The position numbers and the translations under genes are program-made. The notes beneath the pieces were generated by a model. That model had not been told where the DNA came from. It was given only the letters and a program-made list of their open reading frames with translations, and made no database searches. This document shows positions 5,097 to 14,008 of a DNA stretch of 14,008 nt, piece by piece; the stretch's first letter is position 1, and each line of letters opens with the position of its first letter. Source of the DNA: Methanosarcinaceae archaeon (GTDB lineage Archaea > Halobacteriota > Methanosarcinia > Methanosarcinales > Methanosarcinaceae). The stretch is taken from assembly GCA_020793555.1 (NCBI GenBank), contig DQIO01000285.1:1-14008 (forward strand), written 5' to 3'.

Positions 5097-5125
5097 AAAC
5101 CAGCCAATATACAATGAGGAAAAAC

Positions 5126-5431
5126 ATGTATACTGATGAACTCGCCGCACTGTTAAACACGCTTGGGAACAAGCATAGCCTCTCAATACTTGCGGAATTG
5201 GAAGACGGTGAGCAGTATGTTTCCGAACTCGCAGAGAAGATAGGGATATCACGTCCGCTTCTGTATCTTCATCTTAAGAAACTGGAAAATGTGGGGCTGG
5301 TTGAAGGGGAAATTCGACACTTTGACGAACCGCCATATACCAAAAAATACTATCGTGCAAACGATTTTCATATAGAAGTTACATTAAAACACATAAAGGA
5401 TATTGTTAAAAATACTATCAAGGAGATTTAA
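5126..5431 (+). CDS. ArsR-type winged-helix transcriptional regulator
   Basis: A 101-aa regulator. Residues 5-62 form a clear ArsR-like winged helix: LAALLNTLGNKHSLSILAEL (helices 1-2), YVSELAEKIGI (helix 3), SRPLLYLHLKKLENVGLV (recognition helix, 42-59) and a wing at 60-77 with EPPYTKKYYRA. The C-terminal helix (84-101) may be for dimerisation. No cysteine is present, so it is not a thiol metal sensor. The frame is open from ATG 5114, but that ATG overlaps the TGAGG ribosome site serving ATG 5126, so the latter is chosen. Three nt separate its stop from the next small gene, whose AAGGAG site lies in the end of this one. It probably controls its own operon. Confidence 0.85.
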   Translation: MYTDELAALLNTLGNKHSLSILAELEDGEQYVSELAEKIGISRPLLYLHLKKLENVGLVEGEIRHFDEPPYTKKYYRANDFHIEVTLKHIKDIVKNTIKEI

Positions 5432-5637: not shown

Positions 5638-5862
5638 ATGATTTCAAAAGGCCATCCATATAGCAATCATGCAACTTTTCCATGTGATTCACAATATGCA
5701 ACTGTGCTGGATATGACTGCCGGCACACAGTACATACTACTGGGTTTAGTGTTAGCAATAGGTTTGGGCATGCTATTGCTATATTTTAAAATAAATTCCA
5801 CTCTTGGTAAAACAAGTGAAACATTGGGTGAAATAAGTGATCTTTTTGATACACTTGAATAG
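5638..5862 (+). CDS. 74-aa single-pass membrane protein
   Basis: A 74-aa protein of unknown function: a polar N-terminus of about 30 residues with one cysteine, a membrane helix at about residues 32-50 (ILLGLVLAIGLGMLLLYF) and an amphipathic tail (SETLGEISDLFDTLE). The ATG at 5638 has a TGAGG site five bases upstream and is chosen; an internal ATG at 5713 would give a 49-aa form almost the same shape as the 53-aa neighbour, but it has no clear ribosome site. It lies 41 nt behind that neighbour and probably ends the ArsR operon. It converges with rnfB with 67 nt between. Confidence 0.5.
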   Translation: MISKGHPYSNHATFPCDSQYATVLDMTAGTQYILLGLVLAIGLGMLLLYFKINSTLGKTSETLGEISDLFDTLE

Positions 5863-5882: not shown

Positions 5883-5930
5883 AAAAAAAATACTGAAATA
5901 AAAGCAATAAGATTGTGGAAACCACAATCT
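5883..5930 (-). terminator. Terminator of the rnf operon
   Basis: Positions 5910-5918 and 5922-5930 form a perfect 9-bp stem (AGATTGTGG / CCACAATCT) with a three-base loop; the stem takes in the last base of the rnfB stop codon. On the minus strand it is followed by T-rich sequence ending in eight T (complement of 5883-5890). Hairpin plus T tract directly behind the last rnf gene fits a transcription end. Confidence 0.65.
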
Positions 5931-6727
5931 CATCTTAATTCAATAGTACCCTGTGGGCACTTTTCAACACAGGCACCGCATCCTGTGCACTTCTCCTGAT
6001 CGATCTCTGCCAGAAACTTAGTGACCGTTATAGCTTCCTCAGGACAGGCTTTTACACACAATTTACAACCGATACACCCAATTGTGCATGCTGCCTTAAC
6101 GGCTTTACCTTTGTCATGAGAGCGACATTGTACATGCACCTTTTCAGACGCTGTTGCAAGCACAAGTATATCGTTTGGACATGCATCCACACATATGCCG
6201 CAGCTTCTGCAGAGGTGAGGATTGAGTTCAGGGAGCCGTTTATCATTAATTATGAGAGCATTAAACGGACATGCCCGCACACATGTGCCCCGACCCATAC
6301 AGCCGAAACTACATCCTTTCTCACCATCGGAGAGCATCATCACTGCATTACAATCTTCTATACCTTCGTAATCGAACCTATCCACGCAGTTCACACCGCC
6401 GTTGCAGCACGCATACGGATATGCCTTTTCTGACTCTGAGACATCCTGACCCATAATACCGCCAATCGCTTTTACTGCACCAAAACCACCTACCGGACAT
6501 CCGTCGATCGGTGCATTCTCATTGACAACTCTATCTGCAAAATCAGCACATCCTGCAAAACCGCACGCACCGCAATTTGCACCAGGCAGGACCTCCATCA
6601 CCTCTTCAACCAGGGGATTGGCTTCTACCTTGAATATCTTTGATGCTGCCATCAACATGACTCCTACAGAAAGTCCAAGACCTCCTAAAACTGCCATTGA
6701 TTGTATAATTAAAGTATCAGCAGTCAT
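5930..6727 (-). CDS. rnfB: Rnf complex subunit B, multi-cluster ferredoxin-type
   Basis: The 265-aa electron-input subunit of the Rnf complex. An N-terminal membrane helix (about 7-29) is followed by the RnfB-type 4Fe-4S module (C52, C55, C60, C77) and four ferredoxin-type sites: C139-C143-C149-C153 in the CX3CX5CX3CP form, C173-C176-C179-C183, C218-C221-C224-C228 and C247-C250-C253-C257. Four more cysteines (C107, C108, C114, C126) lie between and could hold a further cluster, as in the long RnfB forms of anaerobes. In the family RnfB takes electrons from reduced ferredoxin on the cytoplasmic side. It is the last gene of the operon; its ATG overlaps the rnfA stop by four nt (ATGA) and an AAGGTGATT site lies upstream. 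Confidence 0.97.
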   Translation of the reverse strand: MTADTLIIQSMAVLGGLGLSVGVMLMAASKIFKVEANPLVEEVMEVLPGANCGACGFAGCADFADRVVNENAPIDGCPVGGFGAVKAIGGIMGQDVSESEKAYPYACCNGGVNCVDRFDYEGIEDCNAVMMLSDGEKGCSFGCMGRGTCVRACPFNALIINDKRLPELNPHLCRSCGICVDACPNDILVLATASEKVHVQCRSHDKGKAVKAACTIGCIGCKLCVKACPEEAITVTKFLAEIDQEKCTGCGACVEKCPQGTIELR

Positions 6728-7311
6728 AGGGGAATCACCTTAAAATAGTTGACAAAAGCCATTGACAACATCGTTGCGACCAGAAACGCATGTGGAAGTC
6801 CCTGTATGGCACCCGGGACATTGACATATTCCGCTCGTTCCCGGATCGATGCCATCATCAACATGGCGACCATATAACCAAGACCGGCTGCTATAGCGAA
6901 TACAACACTGTATATAAACGGGTATTCGTTCATCACATTCAGCATTACAACTCCCAGTACCGCACAGTTCGTTGTGATTAAGGGCAGGAATATACCCAGT
7001 GACCGGTACAGTGGTGTTACGTGTTTCCTGAGTATGAACTCCACCAGCTGCACAAGAGCCGCAATCACCACAATGAAGCAAATGAGAGTTAAGAATTCAA
7101 GCTTCAAAGGAACCAGAATATACGTATAAATTATAAATGATGCAACAGCCGCCATGGTCATAACAAATATGACCGCTCCTGACATCCCGGTTGCACTCTT
7201 TAGATCCTTTGTAACACCAACGAATGAACACAGACCAAGGAATTGTATCAAAAGGAAGTTCTTAACAAACACACCATTGATCAATACTGCAATTAGAGAT
7301 TCTTCTACCAC
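6724..7311 (-). CDS. rnfA: Rnf complex subunit A, membrane
   Basis: A 195-aa integral membrane subunit with six predicted helices. RnfA and RnfE form the inverted-repeat pair whose conserved cysteines hold an intramembrane 2Fe-2S cluster; the two cysteines here are C28 (FLGLCSF) and C116 (ITTNCAVLG). Conserved RSLGIFLPLITTNC and the C-terminal GLPHAF are present. The frame is open to a TTG at 7329, but the GTG at 7311 is chosen because GAGGTGAT lies four bases before it, the protein then starts at the family position, and the gene starts one nucleotide after the rnfE stop codon. Confidence 0.95.
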   Translation of the reverse strand: MVEESLIAVLINGVFVKNFLLIQFLGLCSFVGVTKDLKSATGMSGAVIFVMTMAAVASFIIYTYILVPLKLEFLTLICFIVVIAALVQLVEFILRKHVTPLYRSLGIFLPLITTNCAVLGVVMLNVMNEYPFIYSVVFAIAAGLGYMVAMLMMASIRERAEYVNVPGAIQGLPHAFLVATMLSMAFVNYFKVIPL

Positions 7312-7312
7312 T

Positions 7313-7927
7313 TTAATCACCTCTTGCAAGTTTCTTTGCTTTGCGGTAATTCACAATCGCCATCAATATTGCTATTGTCAAAAATGCACCAGGTGGCATA
7401 ATCATAAAGGTTGCAGGATTTATTGGAACAGTTATCAATGTATGCCCGAATGGTGCGATCGCACCGGTTCCGAGAAGTTCCCTGATACCACCCATAAGCA
7501 CCAGTACAAGCAAGAACCCTGTAGCACTGCCAAGTGCATCAATTAATGAATAAAAGACATTGTTCTTGTTCGCATAAGCTTCAGCACGTCCGATAATGAT
7601 ACAATTGACCACTATCAACGGAATGAACACGCCCAACTGCGTGTACATATCAGGCGTAAATGCTTCCATTGCCATATCAACAATTGTCACAAATGTGGCT
7701 ATTATTATAATAAATATCGGAAGTCTGACCGCTGCCGGTATCTGTTTTCGAAGTGCTGAAACTATCATATTTGAACAGACCAGTACAAACGCAGCACCTG
7801 CTGCCATTCCTATGCCATTTTCAACTGATGTTGTAACTGCCAGTAATGGACACAGACCCAGTACAAGTCCGAATATAGGATTATCTGTCGTAATCCCTCG
7901 TATATATTCATCTAATACTTTACTCAT
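7313..7927 (-). CDS. rnfE: Rnf complex subunit E, membrane
   Basis: A 204-aa integral membrane subunit, six predicted helices, homologous to RnfA and inserted in the opposite sense. The conserved cysteines are C26 (GLVLGLCPLLAVT) and C109 (LIVVNCIIIGRAEA), which with those of RnfA should bind the intramembrane 2Fe-2S cluster. The NPIFGLVLGLCP and VNCIIIGRAEA motifs identify RnfE over RnfA. It starts four nt after the rnfG stop with an AGGTGTGAT site, and its last codons contain the ribosome site of rnfA. Confidence 0.96.
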   Translation of the reverse strand: MSKVLDEYIRGITTDNPIFGLVLGLCPLLAVTTSVENGIGMAAGAAFVLVCSNMIVSALRKQIPAAVRLPIFIIIIATFVTIVDMAMEAFTPDMYTQLGVFIPLIVVNCIIIGRAEAYANKNNVFYSLIDALGSATGFLLVLVLMGGIRELLGTGAIAPFGHTLITVPINPATFMIMPPGAFLTIAILMAIVNYRKAKKLARGD

Positions 7928-7931
7928 AAGA

Positions 7932-8498
7932 TCACACCTGCTTCTTTAAATCATCAACCTGCCCACGCAATGCATCTATCACAGCCTGTGACGAAATTGT
8001 AGCACCAGTGATAGAATTAATCTTTCCTCCATCGCTGGTGAGCATTAGATTATTCATTTCCACATCCTTAAACTGGCTCGTGAAATCAGGACTCACAATC
8101 AGTGCACCCAGCCCGGGTGTTTCGGAATGCTTCATAATCGTTATTCCGGTTATTCTGGTGAATTGCGCATCCACTCCTCCTGCAACCTGTATCATCCCCT
8201 GGGATCCAACCTGATCCCTGAAGAATGCATATCCAACTGTGTTACCTGATGCATCCACTCCACGATAATACAATGTCTCAAGATCACCTTCTTCATTGAT
8301 TACCTTGTCACCATACACGTTTTCAAAATCCACTGCTTCCGGAACAATCTCTAATAAAGCTTCCTTCTGTGCAATATCATAGTTTATTTTCAACTGTGCC
8401 TGTGTCGGACCATAAGTCACACTTAATAGGGCAGCCGCAATGACCGAGATCAGCACCATTTTTCCAATAATGACTACGATATTTTCGTCCTTACTCAT
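7932..8498 (-). CDS. rnfG: Rnf complex subunit G, covalent-FMN protein
   Basis: A 188-aa protein with one N-terminal membrane anchor (about 8-30) and an extracytoplasmic FMN-binding domain. The flavin attachment motif SITGATISS places the covalently bound FMN on T167, and the conserved HSETPGLG loop (124-131) precedes it. ApbE-type transferase, which attaches the FMN in this family, is not encoded in the window. In the working model RnfG passes electrons on the outer face, here probably to the multihaem cytochrome. Its ATG overlaps the rnfD stop by four nt. Confidence 0.96.
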   Translation of the reverse strand: MSKDENIVVIIGKMVLISVIAAALLSVTYGPTQAQLKINYDIAQKEALLEIVPEAVDFENVYGDKVINEEGDLETLYYRGVDASGNTVGYAFFRDQVGSQGMIQVAGGVDAQFTRITGITIMKHSETPGLGALIVSPDFTSQFKDVEMNNLMLTSDGGKINSITGATISSQAVIDALRGQVDDLKKQV

Positions 8499-9349
8499 TT
8501 GCCATCACCTCCGAAAGGCTTTGGCAATGTCTTTATTTCAATATACGGTGCAATGCAGTTTGCAAGCATGAGTGCGTAGAACGTCCCTGTCACATAACTT
8601 GCATAATATCCATACAGAACTGTCAGGAAACCGCAGACGATTCCATAAATAATACGTCCTTTTTTAGTAATCGGTATCGTTGCAGAATCAGTTGCAATAA
8701 ACAGCACTCCGAACAGATAAGCACCTGTGATCACATAGGAAAGATCATCTTTTAACAAAAAGACCAGCAGCAATGTTGTTACAAAATAACTGAGTGGAAC
8801 TCTCCATTCAATATATCTCATTAATATAAGTACAACACCACCGATCAATGCAATCGGAGACACACCAACCAAAAACCCCGCTCCATTTTCCAGAATAAGA
8901 TCAGTTAATGCTACAATGTGAGGTGTTGACTTCGTGGTCATAATTGATGTCCAAGAAAGATTCAGGAATACCCACGATACCAAAACCGGATTGAACATAT
9001 AAGAACCAATGCCCCCATATGCATGTTTCACTATCGCGATCGCAAAGAACGAGCCTATGACCGCGATCCAGATCGGGGCATCATATGGAAGGACCAGTGC
9101 AAGCATCAATCCTATCAAAACTGCATGTCCATCAGCTATAGTAATTTCCTGATTGAACACTTTTTGGATCCCGGCTTCTGTTACAACTGCTGTTATTACG
9201 CTTGCAAGAAGTATTCCAAGTGCGGGTAATCCAAAGAAATAAATGGCAACCAGACTCACCGGTACAAGAGCAAGTACTTTGCCCCACATTATCTTATTAA
9301 CAGTTATGCCTTTTACTTTATGGGGTGGAGCTGAAATCGTCAGGGTCAT
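8495..9349 (-). CDS. rnfD: Rnf complex subunit D, membrane
   Basis: A 284-aa integral membrane subunit of the NqrB/RnfD family, with about nine or ten helices. Family landmarks are DGHAVLIGLMLALVLP (73-88), KHAYGGIGSYMFNPVLV (108-124) and the LFIATDSATIPITKKGR block (216-232) that corresponds to the ATDP motif of bacterial RnfD. The usual S/T-G-A-T flavinylation motif expected after the FNPVLV helix is not seen; that stretch (135-165) reads without it. The gene begins directly after the rnfC stop codon (no gap), with GGAGGTGT as ribosome site. Confidence 0.95.
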   Translation of the reverse strand: MTLTISAPPHKVKGITVNKIMWGKVLALVPVSLVAIYFFGLPALGILLASVITAVVTEAGIQKVFNQEITIADGHAVLIGLMLALVLPYDAPIWIAVIGSFFAIAIVKHAYGGIGSYMFNPVLVSWVFLNLSWTSIMTTKSTPHIVALTDLILENGAGFLVGVSPIALIGGVVLILMRYIEWRVPLSYFVTTLLLVFLLKDDLSYVITGAYLFGVLFIATDSATIPITKKGRIIYGIVCGFLTVLYGYYASYVTGTFYALMLANCIAPYIEIKTLPKPFGGDGK

Positions 9350-10648
9350 TTAGACACCTCCTTCACAAGATTCGCATCCGAGTGTCAGATTCGACGATTC
9401 TTTTTCTGCCATGTCAACATACGCTCTTTCAATCGCGACCTTTGCATACTTGATTAGCTGCAACAGCGGTATCTTCGAAGGACACTCCACTGTACAAAGA
9501 CCACACTCTACACAATTCATAACATGCATCAACCGACAATCATCGAATTTACCCTGATCTGCTAAAATTGCTATACGTGTAGGGAGTATATCAACAGGAC
9601 ACACATCAACACATCGGGCGCAATGGATGCATGGTATGGGTTGGACAGACAAAATCTCAGAGGGAGACTGTATAAGAATCCCGGCAGTCTGCTTTACAAC
9701 AGGCACTTCATCCGTGTACTGGGCAATGCCCGTATACAGCCCGTTGACTATTATCTTTCCGGGTTCACCGTTGCACCCACCGCATTGCTCAAAGATATCC
9801 TTAAATCTCATACCTATGGGCACCAGTATAGATTGCGGATTGCCCACCGGACCATACACTGACACTGGCATCAGCATGGAGGGTCTGCCATTTACTACTG
9901 CATCATACACCTCATAAGCCGGATTGACTCCGCATACAGCGACTTTGACATCCTGCGATTTCCCGCCCATCTGGCTTCTGGCACCAAGAATATCGTACAC
10001 AAGAAGATTTTCCATATTTAAGGTATATGCAATTTTGAGCGGTACAACACGAATGTTGCTTTCAAGCTTAAGGTTGGATAATATTCTGAATGCTTCCTTG
10101 TTGTTTCTGTTGACTGCAATGATAGCCTGCTTTGCACCAGATGCCTTCATCAGGAATTTCAAACCCTTATAGAACTGCGAGGAGTATGAATTAATACCCA
10201 CACATCCCGCGATCATTGATGATTCATAGGTGACGTTTAAGATAATAGTATCGATATTTTCGATAACCTCGCATGTAGGTGTACCGTATATCTCGACAAC
10301 ACCGGCATCCTTTATGATCTGTTTAATTTCGGACTGATCCGGATTATCCAGTGAGTTAAACTCAATCGACTGCTGTTGCTCGTCCACTGTTATTACAATA
10401 CTTATTACCTTGTTACCTGAGGGATGAGGTAGTTCATCGATCGCGGCCACAATTCCGGAAACACTTGCATGTACCGGCGCGGATCCTAAACCCACAGCTT
10501 CACCTATCTGTTGTCCGGCAAGAACTGTATCACCTACCGATACTAAAGGTTTGCATGGTGCTCCTTTGTGCTGACGCAAGGGTATCACAACGTCTTCTGG
10601 AAGTTTCTTCAGAAAGTTGATTGTTTCCAGATTATTATAGTTTCCCAT
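9350..10648 (-). CDS. rnfC: Rnf complex subunit C, ferredoxin-type, NADH motif degenerate
   Basis: A 432-aa soluble, membrane-associated subunit. It has the RnfC N-terminal barrel-sandwich region (about 20-90), a core domain where bacterial RnfC binds FMN and NADH, an SLBB-like stretch (about 280-320, CGGCNGEPGKIIVNG), and two 4Fe-4S sites: C340-C343-C346-C350 and C379-C382-C385-C389. The core glycine-rich GxGGxGFPT motif is replaced by GVVEIYGTPTCEVI (116-129), so NADH binding is doubtful; this agrees with archaeal Rnf, which does not use NAD. A GCESCEGG tail is present. It lies seven nt behind the multihaem cytochrome gene with a GGAG site inside that gene's last codons. Confidence 0.95.
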   Translation of the reverse strand: MGNYNNLETINFLKKLPEDVVIPLRQHKGAPCKPLVSVGDTVLAGQQIGEAVGLGSAPVHASVSGIVAAIDELPHPSGNKVISIVITVDEQQQSIEFNSLDNPDQSEIKQIIKDAGVVEIYGTPTCEVIENIDTIILNVTYESSMIAGCVGINSYSSQFYKGLKFLMKASGAKQAIIAVNRNNKEAFRILSNLKLESNIRVVPLKIAYTLNMENLLVYDILGARSQMGGKSQDVKVAVCGVNPAYEVYDAVVNGRPSMLMPVSVYGPVGNPQSILVPIGMRFKDIFEQCGGCNGEPGKIIVNGLYTGIAQYTDEVPVVKQTAGILIQSPSEILSVQPIPCIHCARCVDVCPVDILPTRIAILADQGKFDDCRLMHVMNCVECGLCTVECPSKIPLLQLIKYAKVAIERAYVDMAEKESSNLTLGCESCEGGV

Positions 10649-10655
10649 ATTGTCT

Positions 10656-12182
10656 CTATTCTCCTATTGGGTCATTTGCATTTTCCGCATTTGAATCTTC
10701 TTCCAATGCTGGCTTGCCCTCAACCTCTGCTGGTTTTGGTCGAGGGTCATATTTGTCCACTTCAATCGACAATACAGAGTAGTCCCCGGGGGATGCAGGA
10801 TCTGCATCATAACCCAGAGCTAACCAGTCCACCGGAGGTCTGTATTCATGACATATTGTGCACTCGATTGCCTCTGCGGTGAAATGGATACTGTCCAGAA
10901 TAGATGTCCCTGATGCACAGTGACAATCGCCGCAGGTCAACGGAGCTGCCAGACCGACTTTTGTGCTGGCTATATTATGACTGACCCTGAAGTACAAATC
11001 CTGCTCACGCAAGACTGCATTCGGATAATCTGGTTGACCATTATTGTTGCCATCGTATGCGTGCATCTCACCGGATAAAACTTGACCGTTATTGTCAGCA
11101 TCTGCTGCTATCACATCAGCCAGTGCAATCGGATTACCGATAGCTGTACTGGTATCTGGATTCAACCTGACATCAGCATTGATGCCTGCATCCCACCAGG
11201 TTACAGTGATAATATTAAACGGTACCAGTTTTACATTAGGATCATCCTTGCTGTCTGGAACCGGAAGTTTATCATCATCCATTCCATCAGACCATTCAAG
11301 TACAGGTCTGATCTCGGAATCCTTGTATATTTCTTCCTTCACACCGTTTGCCCAGTTAACAGATTCAAGTACGGTTTCTGCCGGAAGCATGGGTATGTGA
11401 CAACTATCACATGCAACTACTCCATAGTGCGCGCCATCAATTACCATGCCATGACTAATACCCTCATGACAATCAATACATTCCTTCATAGCTTCACTGC
11501 TGTTAGCTGGATCAGGTACACCACCCCTGCCGATCTGGTGATCTCTTGTAATATGACATTCAGAGCATTCTACCGAATAGCTGGCATGTACATCATATTG
11601 ATCATAATCACTCTGGGTCCATTTAACCCCGGTCTTTTTGGAATCACCCGAATGGCATGTGTATGCACAAGTCCGGGTTGTTGAAACACCATAAGACACA
11701 GGTTGACTTGTCAGAATAGCCCCTACCGCATCAAAGTTTGCTTCAGTGTACCTACCTTCTGCAATAGCCCTGCCACGTGCATCCCAATCATACTCTCCGG
11801 TTGGGTCATGGCAAATATTACAATCAATGTCCATGCCTTCGCCGCCATCAATCGTTTCAAGCGGTCCTCCGCCTGGATGATAATTCATGTATGACTTTGC
11901 CCAGTCATCTTCACTGCCAGGTTCAATCTCAAATCTTGTGAGATATGACATGCCATTGTACATACTGTCTTCGAAATCTCCTGCCCGCTGTACATGGTAA
12001 GATGCTACAACATCGTCGTATACATTTCCATGACAGCCGCCACATTGAAGTTCGTCCCAATGTCCATCGCTCAAATAGTGCGGAGCAGTGGCCTGATTTC
12101 CGCTGTGTCCCAAATTACCCATGTAGACGCCAGCAATCAATATGACTATAATAACTGCTGTTTTTATTATTAATCCATTCAT
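10656..12182 (-). CDS. mmcA: Rnf-associated multihaem c-type cytochrome, MmcA-like
   Basis: A 508-aa protein with an N-terminal hydrophobic segment (about 7-23) that exports or anchors it outside the membrane. Haem sites are seven CXXCH (C47, C121, C206, C235, C258, C417, C441) and one CXXXCH (C172-C176-H177), so eight haems c are possible; M. acetivorans MmcA is described with seven. An octahaem tetrathionate-reductase-like family is the alternative name. Between haems six and seven is a long insert (265-410) with an acidic stretch and two EF-hand-like loops (361-372 and 377-388) of the DxDxxGQ kind. Its place directly before rnfC matches M. acetivorans, where this cytochrome takes electrons from Rnf and can pass them to methanophenazine or external acceptors. 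It has no C-terminal membrane helix. It starts 15 nt behind the 121-aa gene, with AGGTGG. Confidence 0.92.
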   Translation of the reverse strand: MNGLIIKTAVIIVILIAGVYMGNLGHSGNQATAPHYLSDGHWDELQCGGCHGNVYDDVVASYHVQRAGDFEDSMYNGMSYLTRFEIEPGSEDDWAKSYMNYHPGGGPLETIDGGEGMDIDCNICHDPTGEYDWDARGRAIAEGRYTEANFDAVGAILTSQPVSYGVSTTRTCAYTCHSGDSKKTGVKWTQSDYDQYDVHASYSVECSECHITRDHQIGRGGVPDPANSSEAMKECIDCHEGISHGMVIDGAHYGVVACDSCHIPMLPAETVLESVNWANGVKEEIYKDSEIRPVLEWSDGMDDDKLPVPDSKDDPNVKLVPFNIITVTWWDAGINADVRLNPDTSTAIGNPIALADVIAADADNNGQVLSGEMHAYDGNNNGQPDYPNAVLREQDLYFRVSHNIASTKVGLAAPLTCGDCHCASGTSILDSIHFTAEAIECTICHEYRPPVDWLALGYDADPASPGDYSVLSIEVDKYDPRPKPAEVEGKPALEEDSNAENANDPIGE

Positions 12183-12197
12183 CTTTCAAACCACCTG

Positions 12198-12563
12198 TTA
12201 ATATTCAACCGCCTTATCTGAGTCGTACATAGGATGTTTTCTCTTTAAGAAAAAATTGTACATCGGTTTTATAAGACCAAGCACCATAGCAATAATCTGT
12301 GTTGCGACAAGGAACATTGCAATATTCAATCCGACATTGCGAATCATGTAGATTGTTTCATTTTCCATTATATTCGTTTTCGTCAGATCTGGTGTTATAA
12401 TTGCAGGGTCAACAATATTCTGCCATTCTATAATCGGTAGAAGTATGTTCGTGTGCATGATGTATGTGTATGACATGCACAGATATGCGTATATAAGAGA
12501 AACCAAAGCAACTATGGCAAGTATTATACCAAATATTCTGAATGGATTTTTCTTATTACTCAT
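12198..12563 (-). CDS. Two-helix membrane protein of the rnf operon
   Basis: A 121-aa protein of no recognised family. It has a basic N-terminus (MSNKKNPFR), a membrane helix at about 10-33, a loop of about 40 residues (34-72) that should face outside, a second helix at about 73-98 and a basic C-terminus (FFLKRKHPMYD). Charge distribution puts both ends inside. It contains one cysteine (C29) and histidines at H37 and H110, not an obvious haem pair. Its ATG overlaps the cytochrome b stop by four nt (ATGA), so it is probably made in fixed ratio with that cytochrome and may be a small partner subunit linking it to the multihaem cytochrome encoded next. Confidence 0.75.
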   Translation of the reverse strand: MSNKKNPFRIFGIILAIVALVSLIYAYLCMSYTYIMHTNILLPIIEWQNIVDPAIITPDLTKTNIMENETIYMIRNVGLNIAMFLVATQIIAMVLGLIKPMYNFFLKRKHPMYDSDKAVEY

Positions 12564-13237
12564 TTGGAATCACCTTCCATTACCTCATCATACCATTGCG
12601 TATATTCATGCTGGACCTCATGCGCATCCATATATCCTGTGAACATTGTCTTATCAACCGGGAAACGCGCTGGTGTGAGATGTACCACATAGAAATGCAA
12701 CAAAATACCACACAAGCTCAGTATTGCAAAACTGCCGTGTACAAATTTCAGGGAAAGTATTATCGATTTAGGTAAAATTGATGTAAAAAACCATGGCATC
12801 CAGATAACAATGCCTGTAACTCCCATGATCAGGGCATCAAAGATCGCAACACTGAAAATATCGATCTTTTCAAGCCAGTTGTACTTGCGATATCCTTCGG
12901 GCTGTTTTCCAATGTGGAATGAATACAAGACATCTTTTATAGCGGCCTTGCCGTCATGGATGCCAGGAAATACATTCTTCAATGGTGAAAAATCGATGAA
13001 TACCAGATAGAGTGCAAAATAAATTGCATAATATAATGATGATGCAATGAGTGCAACCCCGGCAACCCGGTGGATATACATCATCTCTGAAAGACCTATA
13101 AGTCCCGGGATCCATCCAAGTTCTTTAGGAAATATAAGTGAAATTCCTGTAATATACAGTATCATGATCGAGAGGGCGCACAAGGTATGTGCTCCAATCT
13201 GTGCTTCTGAAAAACGTTCTATCATCTTAGCTGACAT
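12560..13237 (-). CDS. b-type cytochrome, formate dehydrogenase gamma/hydrogenase type
   Basis: A 225-aa membrane protein with four predicted helices (about 14-36, 55-80, 126-150, 163-187), as in the di-haem b cytochromes of formate dehydrogenase and Ni-hydrogenase (FdnI/HyaC-like). Candidate haem ligands are H17 in the first helix, H56 in the second, and H167, H181 and H186 in the fourth; two haems are likely. The KYNWLEKIDIF segment before helix three is typical of FdnI-like proteins. In cytochrome-bearing methanogens such proteins react with methanophenazine. There is no dehydrogenase or hydrogenase gene nearby; its partners here are the rnf and cytochrome c genes. GAGGTGA lies three bases before the ATG. 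Confidence 0.85.
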   Translation of the reverse strand: MSAKMIERFSEAQIGAHTLCALSIMILYITGISLIFPKELGWIPGLIGLSEMMYIHRVAGVALIASSLYYAIYFALYLVFIDFSPLKNVFPGIHDGKAAIKDVLYSFHIGKQPEGYRKYNWLEKIDIFSVAIFDALIMGVTGIVIWMPWFFTSILPKSIILSLKFVHGSFAILSLCGILLHFYVVHLTPARFPVDKTMFTGYMDAHEVQHEYTQWYDEVMEGDSK

Positions 13238-13248
13238 GGTTCACCTCA

Positions 13249-13488
13249 CTAATTTCTAATAAGTCTAAGATGTACAATTAATGTCAGGAATGTCAGGAAG
13301 CATGCCCCACACACAACAATAAGTGTAAGACAAAGCTTTAGCAAACCAAGTAGTTCATATTCGATACTCGTCATTAATGGAAGCGATGTGTTCGGTGTAT
13401 TATATGCTGACACTAAACCCATGAGCAATAGTACAAATACAACAGTAATGACACATGCAATAAAACTAATATTTGATTTTGAAACCAT
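13249..13488 (-). CDS. 79-aa two-helix membrane protein
   Basis: A small protein with two membrane helices (about 7-29 and 47-71), an outer loop containing YNTPNTSLPLMTSIE, and positive ends (MVSKSN; HLRLIRN), so both termini should be inside. It has three cysteines within the helices. No family is recognised. It lies 11 nt before the cytochrome b gene and shares its transcript. It may stabilise or dock the cytochrome, but nothing in the sequence shows the role directly. Confidence 0.7.
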   Translation of the reverse strand: MVSKSNISFIACVITVVFVLLLMGLVSAYNTPNTSLPLMTSIEYELLGLLKLCLTLIVVCGACFLTFLTLIVHLRLIRN

Positions 13489-13526
13489 CTTTATTCTCCT
13501 GTTTACACCATCGGATGTTAAACCTA

Positions 13527-13922
13527 TTATTCAGCCGCCATTTCAAGTTGCTTAATAACTACAGCGATTGTGTTTCTTAAACGCTGCTCATTCAGTATCT
13601 TCAGATCCGGTGACACATATTTATTGATTTCAAACTTTTTAGGAATTTCTTGCGTATTGAAATCCAGAGCTTTATCAAGCGTTCCTTTTTTAGTAGCTAA
13701 TCCCAAAAAATTCACATTCATAAAAGCTCCCATCACATGCGCTTTAATTTCGATCCTCTCAAGGTGTGATTCAGAGTTTATGTACACCATGTTATGAGAT
13801 TCAACGCCGAAATTTCTTTCGATTCCATTCCAGCCGTACTCTTCCATTAGTTGATGAATGGCAACAATGAGATATCTATCATTAGATGCCGCTGTATCAC
13901 CTTTTGTGCTATGGTCACTCAT
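13527..13922 (-). CDS. 131-aa soluble orphan protein, first gene of rnf operon
   Basis: A soluble protein of unknown function. The N-terminus (SDHSTKGDTAASND) looks disordered; then comes a helix (RYLIVAIHQLMEEYGWNG), a strand-rich middle (ESHNMVYINSES, HLERIEIKAHVMGAFMNV) and a C-terminal helix (NEQRLRNTIAVVIKQLEMAAE). It has no cysteine, so it is not an electron carrier with Fe-S or haem c. It lacks a signal peptide and membrane helix, so it is probably cytoplasmic. GGATG lies before the ATG. Being first behind the promoter, it could be a regulatory or assembly factor; no DNA-binding motif is seen. Confidence 0.75.
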   Translation of the reverse strand: MSDHSTKGDTAASNDRYLIVAIHQLMEEYGWNGIERNFGVESHNMVYINSESHLERIEIKAHVMGAFMNVNFLGLATKKGTLDKALDFNTQEIPKKFEINKYVSPDLKILNEQRLRNTIAVVIKQLEMAAE

Positions 13923-13985
13923 AATAATACATCCTTTTATAACAATAATATTGATTTAAATTCTATAGCAGTGAATGGTCGCAAA

Positions 13986-14001
13986 TACTTATATCTTTCG
14001 A
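13986..14001 (-). promoter_or_regulatory. BRE/TATA-like promoter of the rnf operon
   Basis: On the minus strand the sequence reads CGAAAG followed by ATATAAGTA, a good match to an archaeal BRE plus TATA box. It lies about 64 bases before the ATG of the 131-aa gene, which would leave a 5' leader of roughly 35 to 40 nt carrying the GGATG ribosome site. Confidence 0.5.
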
Positions 14002-14008
14002 ATTTTAC

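Follow-up and report, generated by a model that had tools for sequence, protein, structure and literature searches.

The stretch analysed here (the window: 14,008 nucleotides (nt), contig DQIO01000285.1 of assembly GCA_020793555.1, a Methanosarcinaceae archaeon; contig C281 in our comparison) carries on its minus strand a run of genes that ends in mmcA–rnfCDGEAB and opens with four open reading frames (ORFs), for a soluble protein (p131), a small membrane protein (p79), a b-type cytochrome (cytb), and a second small membrane protein (p121) (Table 1). A first-pass annotation had placed four extra genes at these same positions ahead of the mmcA–rnf core. The ORFs, their hydropathy, and a match to PF01292 bear out an added b cytochrome and, with it, a pair of small membrane proteins, but p131 is a long-standing neighbour of mmcA in methanogens, and the added part is a three-gene module, small–cytb–small, and not four genes.

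Table 1. Features of the mmcA–rnf locus, in order of reading on the minus strand (aa, amino acids; BRE, transcription factor B recognition element).
Feature	Position	Strand	Description	Basis
Promoter-like element	13984..14002	-	BRE/TATA-like, ~70 nt ahead of p131	Invariance in aligned upstream regions
p131	13527..13922	-	131-aa soluble orphan protein; ancestral mmcA neighbour, outside the added module	ORF, relatives
p79	13249..13488	-	79-aa membrane protein with two helices; first of the module's small proteins	ORF, hydropathy, cytb-fused relatives
cytb	12560..13237	-	225-aa four-helix b cytochrome, FdnI-like	PF01292, alignments
p121	12198..12563	-	121-aa membrane protein with two helices; second of the module's small proteins	ORF, conservation, profiles, hydropathy
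mmcA	10656..12182	-	Multiheme cytochrome c, 8 CxxCH/CxxxCH motifs	TIGR04314, motif count
rnfC	9350..10648	-		Pfam/NCBIfam Rnf models
rnfD	8495..9349	-		Pfam/NCBIfam Rnf models
rnfG	7932..8498	-		Pfam/NCBIfam Rnf models
rnfE	7313..7927	-		NCBIfam Rnf model
rnfA	6724..7329	-		PF02508, position
rnfB	5930..6727	-		Pfam/NCBIfam Rnf models
Stem-loop	5906..5934	-	T-rich tail, possible terminator	Downstream of rnfB

Organization of the locus

The spacing is as tight as had been claimed, with gaps of 38 nt (p131–p79), 11 nt (p79–cytb), 15 nt (p121–mmcA), and 7 nt (mmcA–rnfC) and a 4-nt overlap between cytb and p121. Simple hydropathy gives two, four, and two membrane helices for p79, cytb, and p121 and none for p131. 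The mmcA product scores 456 bits with TIGR04314 (cut-off 250), and RnfC, D, G, E, and B each exceed the cut-off of some NCBIfam Rnf model, although RnfC passes TIGR01945 while falling below rnfC_Methano (453.5 versus 650); RnfA, scanned with Pfam only, scores 178 bits with PF02508. Neither p131, p79, nor p121 has a Pfam or NCBIfam match above cut-off, and they are regarded as genes because their ORFs are kept in relatives.

The single promoter proposed ahead of the first gene has its counterpart in a 19-nt stretch (14002–13984) that resembles the archaeal BRE/TATA consensus and is identical in all five aligned upstream regions. As for the proposed single terminator, a stem of 13 pairs with a T-rich tail follows rnfB, and is similar in G180 and less so in G183 (two relatives of the same genus); terminator-like matches across the whole window are no commoner than in shuffled sequence (6 versus a mean of 9.3).

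The window belongs to a genome of 2.56 Mb that is 92.7% complete. Four relatives of cytb were found in a contig search, all in metagenome-assembled genomes of Methanosarcinaceae, one of them named HMMV ANME3_46, from which we infer that the host is an ANME-3 archaeon (ANME, anaerobic methanotrophic archaea) or very near to one. The locus was compared across 185 genomes of the order, including seven of the window's genus (g1) and a genus, g14, that includes a genome which we take to be that of Methanosarcina acetivorans. A second family, f3, appears to be ANME-2a/b, judging from the protein name 'ANME-2 cluster archaeon' among relatives and from the published distribution.

A b cytochrome of the FdnI type

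The product of cytb passes the model for prokaryotic cytochrome b561 (PF01292; 60.3 bits against a cut-off of 30.1) and is the one PF01292 protein found in the window genome. Its H17, H56, H167, and H181, which are invariant in 21 sequences, align with H18, H57, H155, and H169 of the formate dehydrogenase subunit FdnI, and these four histidines are presumably the heme ligands. The protein lies below the equivalog cut-offs both of the formate dehydrogenase gamma subunit (TIGR01583; 45.4 versus 115.85) and of the hydrogenase-type cytochrome b on the side of VhtC and Mco (TIGR02125; 22.5 versus 121.5), and no relative was found on viral contigs. Outside rnf clusters the nearest relatives sit in molybdoenzyme operons, and a membrane anchor of a molybdoenzyme was probably the source of the module. 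A second cytb family (31–35% identical to that of the window; L051–L054, L056–L058, L063) is likewise preceded by a small gene of 97–133 aa, and the pairing of a small gene with cytb looks like a recurring unit.

Distribution of the module and its small partners

Comparison of gene neighbourhoods links the upstream genes to rnf in relatives, and the absence of such linkage, which the first-pass annotation had named as grounds for its own refutation, was not what the comparison showed. All 12 mapped f3 loci have cytb and the small gene that follows it ahead of mmcA, with p131 between module and mmcA in four. Six of the seven genomes of the window's genus contain a close cytb, the seventh being G184; here the module stands between p131 and mmcA, and it precedes mmcA in all five module-bearing loci whose contig continues. 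Among the other 73 MmcA-bearing genomes of the family, those outside g1, none has a close cytb. Paralogues of 34–35% identity occur on other contigs of G075 and G076, and weak p121 matches, each with an internal stop, lie just before mmcA in G110 (E 0.025) and G111 (E 0.011).

The counterpart of p79 is a separate gene of 82–85 aa before cytb in seven f3 loci, and in four others (G015, G018, G019, and G021, all of group g19) it is fused to cytb as an N-terminal extension of ~90 aa; the twelfth locus, L055, ends inside cytb. A fifth g19 locus, in G016 (contamination 6%), is of the unfused type, and fused proteins make up 6 of 26 database relatives. Profile comparisons join p79 to the fused extension (94.8%), the extension to the separate f3 gene (99.3%), and p121 to its own f3 counterpart (99.1%), as against 0.1 to 13.5% when one kind of small protein was set against the other (four comparisons). 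Both p79 and p121 are probably accessory subunits.

Two side observations concern the neighbouring cytochrome. Across 30 loci MmcA has eight heme motifs in the window, seven or eight in most methanogens, seven in three g19 loci, and nine in six other f3 loci, and in one f3 locus (G007; L045 6616–7827) a 403-aa ORF lies between mmcA and rnfC.

p131, by comparison, adjoins mmcA upstream in many methanogens, and its standing as an extra gene was rejected. Matches at E ≤ 0.1 occur in 64 of the 185 genomes, two of them at chance level; the 62 strong ones fall in the window's family (58) and in g19 of f3 (4), and all of these genomes except G181, which is 60% complete, also have an MmcA match. It directly precedes mmcA in every one of the 10 mapped module-free loci that carry it; the MmcA-bearing genomes of genera g4, g5, g10, and g14 show no strong p131 match. 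Searches of sequence families and the PDB gave nothing convincing for p131, and its predicted fold is poor (predicted local distance difference test score 54). It may be a helper in the assembly or regulation of MmcA–Rnf.

Sister loci with and without the module

A quick tree of elongation factor 2 (EF-2; gene present in 27 of 28 genomes) places G180 and G184 together (99) and inside the window's genus (99). Their rnf loci differ in content. G180 has the module, ANME-type MmcA and RnfC, and no match to MA0665 (L159 1822–2205), a weakly DUF4870-like protein whose gene lies behind rnfB in methanogens. G184 has no module; p131 ends 14 nt short of mmcA, its MmcA and RnfC fall among those of methanogens, and an MA0665 homologue lies behind rnfB. 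Identity between the two loci is 96% for a flanking 388-aa protein, a 105-aa regulator-like protein, and a 74-aa ORF and 88% for ApbE, and within rnf it is 90% for RnfE, 81% for RnfB, 80% for RnfA, 73% for RnfD, and 68% for RnfG. A binning artefact in G184 is unlikely, given that both of its rnf contigs carry flanking genes 88–96% identical to those of G180. In the window the 105-aa regulator-like gene (5114–5431, plus strand) and the 74-aa ORF (5638–5862, plus strand) face rnfB, and both are kept in G180 and G184.

Of the 73 other MmcA-bearing genomes of the family, 72 have a match to MA0665, as do, at 30–41% identity, seven of the 12 module-bearing f3 genomes; two queries found no match in the six module-bearing genomes of the genus, that of the window included, which are 60–98% complete. 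By inspection only, neither p121 nor p79 was judged related to MA0665. In G075 a shortened MmcA with six heme motifs stands directly behind p131 (L142 2629–3783).

Trees of the locus, all of them quick searches, tell a mixed story. The joint MmcA–Rnf tree places G184 with methanogens and G075 among module-bearing rows, and the single-gene trees disagree among themselves. On this comparison of genes and trees the rnf locus appears to be a mosaic whose history cannot be assigned firmly to gain, loss, or replacement. Chadwick et al. (2022; PMC9012536) report that the rnf clusters of ANME-2a, 2b, and 3 include a b cytochrome which related methanogens lack, and offer either transfer or loss by methanogens as its history; cytochrome b near RNF is also reported for ANME-2a/b, ANME-2d, and ANME-3 (PMC10989977). 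Vertical inheritance, in which the common ancestor of both families already had the module and methanogens lost it, with no insertion in the ANME-3 line, is a real possibility that falls somewhat short of an even chance. The ANME-3 and ANME-2a/b clades of cytb are sisters and not nested, their divergence (44–54% identity) is of the same order as that of RnfD and RnfG (46–56%), and few losses are needed on the joint tree, but the module lies between p131 and mmcA in ANME-3 and upstream of both in the four ANME-2-type loci that carry p131, and adjacency of p131 and mmcA is widespread. Transfer from within ANME-2a/b into ANME-3 is unsupported, the cytb clades being sisters.

The distribution of the module does not follow methanotrophy neatly. 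A dimethylamine methyltransferase gene was found in two of the seven genus genomes, G183 (module present; 98% complete, 4% contamination) and G184 (module absent), and MtaB in none of the seven. Because G183 carries methylamine methyltransferase genes together with the module, the module is no proof of methanotrophy, and its use as a clean marker of that metabolism is unsupported. The dimethylamine methyltransferase genes of both genomes contain an in-frame TAG and stand among methylamine-type genes (L189, G183:C41; L190, G184:C126), contamination being possible in G183.

Proposed function of the module

There is reason to suspect that p79–cytb–p121 connects methanophenazine to MmcA, probably feeding electrons outward, and we would put the chances of this at about even. 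The proposal rests on gene order, homology, conservation of the heme ligands, and the linkage of the module to mmcA in each of two groups, one of which has a p79 relative fused to cytb. The three proteins would make up a membrane module akin to FdnI, the diheme subunit of formate dehydrogenase-N that reacts with quinone, and would work with MmcA and Rnf. The membrane-spanning cytochrome would have both termini on the inside; of its two hemes, the one close to the inner face would exchange electrons with methanophenazine and the one close to the outer face with MmcA, the latter protein standing in for the outward-facing iron–sulfur (FeS) subunit of FdnI-type enzymes. Electrons could then pass from reduced methanophenazine through cytb to MmcA and outward, and MmcA might gather electrons both from ferredoxin, via Rnf, and from methanophenazine. 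The addition of a diheme cytochrome that crosses the membrane and has a quinone-type site would suit such a second entry to MmcA, with reduced methanophenazine as the donor.

In M. acetivorans MmcA conveys electrons from Rnf to methanophenazine, and it reduces a methanophenazine analogue without a b cytochrome (PMC11024163, as far as accessible). Since MmcA alone can do this, and since methanogens with mmcA–rnf lack the module, the opposite, outward flow is most likely the added function. A methanophenazine or outward route was also the hypothesis of the first-pass annotation, and it is a natural reading that is already in print: PMC9012536 suggests that the rnf-cluster b cytochrome may take electrons off reduced methanophenazine and hand them to the cytochrome c linked to Rnf. 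For the step from methanophenazine to cytochrome c in ANME that paper gives only candidate enzymes.

Several observations weigh against an outward-feeding module. G184 lacks it despite belonging to the window's genus, and G075 (76% complete) has ANME-3-clade MmcA and RnfC with neither module nor MA0665 match, while G183 combines the module with methylamine methyltransferase genes. Direct profile comparison of p79 with the separate f3 counterpart gives only 30%, and the tree link between cytb and its molybdoenzyme relatives is weak (84/64). FdnI itself carries electrons inward, and sending them out by way of an inner-face site would be expected to cost membrane potential.

A rival is an inward route, in which MmcA would pass electrons to cytb at the outer face and methanophenazine would be reduced at the inner-face site with uptake of protons from the inner side, so that ferredoxin oxidation by Rnf would gain a redox loop of the kind that FdnI forms with menaquinone. 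The relationship of cytb to FdnI and the direction of transfer through MmcA in M. acetivorans (PMC11024163) would agree with this, but the same MmcA manages the reduction of a methanophenazine analogue with no b cytochrome, and none of the 73 other MmcA-bearing genomes of the family has a close cytb; we consider the inward route unlikely. That the module, though in the same operon, belongs to a separate complex with a different extracellular cytochrome, leaving Rnf and MmcA to act as in methanogens, might be read from the MmcA and RnfC retained in G075, but it is quite improbable given the constant position of cytb and the second small gene before mmcA in the 12 ANME-2a/b-like loci (four with p131 between) and of the module in the five continuing loci of the genus.

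A bolder form of the outward-feeding proposal, tentative and on balance doubtful, is that the module is a transferable three-gene cassette derived from a molybdoenzyme anchor, one that is swapped along with the MmcA and RnfC variants that match it while MA0665 is given up, and by which the ferredoxin:methanophenazine pump of methanogens would be made to export electrons from both ferredoxin and methanophenazine. If so, G180 and G184 would offer a natural comparison of the same locus with and without the module. It is not settled how the electrons of methane oxidation reach the outside partners of ANME, and the three-gene module and its module-free sister locus make the step from methanophenazine to cytochrome c testable in a tractable Methanosarcina that has MmcA and Rnf.

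Comparison with known systems

The cytochrome b556 subunit of Escherichia coli formate dehydrogenase-N (FdnI; 1kqf chain C) shares with cytb the PF01292 domain, four helices, the four heme histidines, and an aligned Asn that we take to be part of the quinone site; the window differs in having no molybdopterin or FeS subunit, two small flanking proteins, and MmcA/Rnf as the apparent partner. The molybdoenzyme operons (G063, G064, and a second copy in G015) come closer, with a cytb 38–43% identical and a small gene ahead of it, and in G063 a p121-like small gene after it as well (94% for the f3 profile B_f3 against that gene). However, cytb there stands with molybdopterin and FeS subunits and not with mmcA–rnf, and their first small protein reaches 4.9–41% against p79 in profile comparison, at which homology is not established.

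Among systems of the same lineage, the MmcA–Rnf locus of M. acetivorans (PMC11024163, accessible portion) has the same order of mmcA and rnfCDGEAB but neither p131 nor the module, and has MA0665 behind rnfB. Mco, a methanophenazine:cytochrome c oxidoreductase proposed in the accessible text of PMC9012536, likewise joins a b cytochrome to a multiheme cytochrome for the same proposed reaction but uses a VhtC-type cytochrome, and the window's cytb lies far below the TIGR02125 cut-off.

The ANME rnf clusters already described (PMC9012536; also PMC10989977) share with the window a cytochrome b alongside mmcA in the rnf cluster and the same hypothesis of electron route. PMC9012536 states that ANME-3 clusters hold MA0665, whereas the window and the five other module-bearing genomes of its genus have no match to it; its main text, so far as available, does not mention the flanking small genes, the fusion, or p131, and no literature search was aimed at the small genes themselves. 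The cytochrome b of the ANME rnf cluster and its proposed route have thus been known since 2022, and what is added here is the composition of the module, the p79–cytb fusion, the likely ancestry, and the mosaic sister loci.
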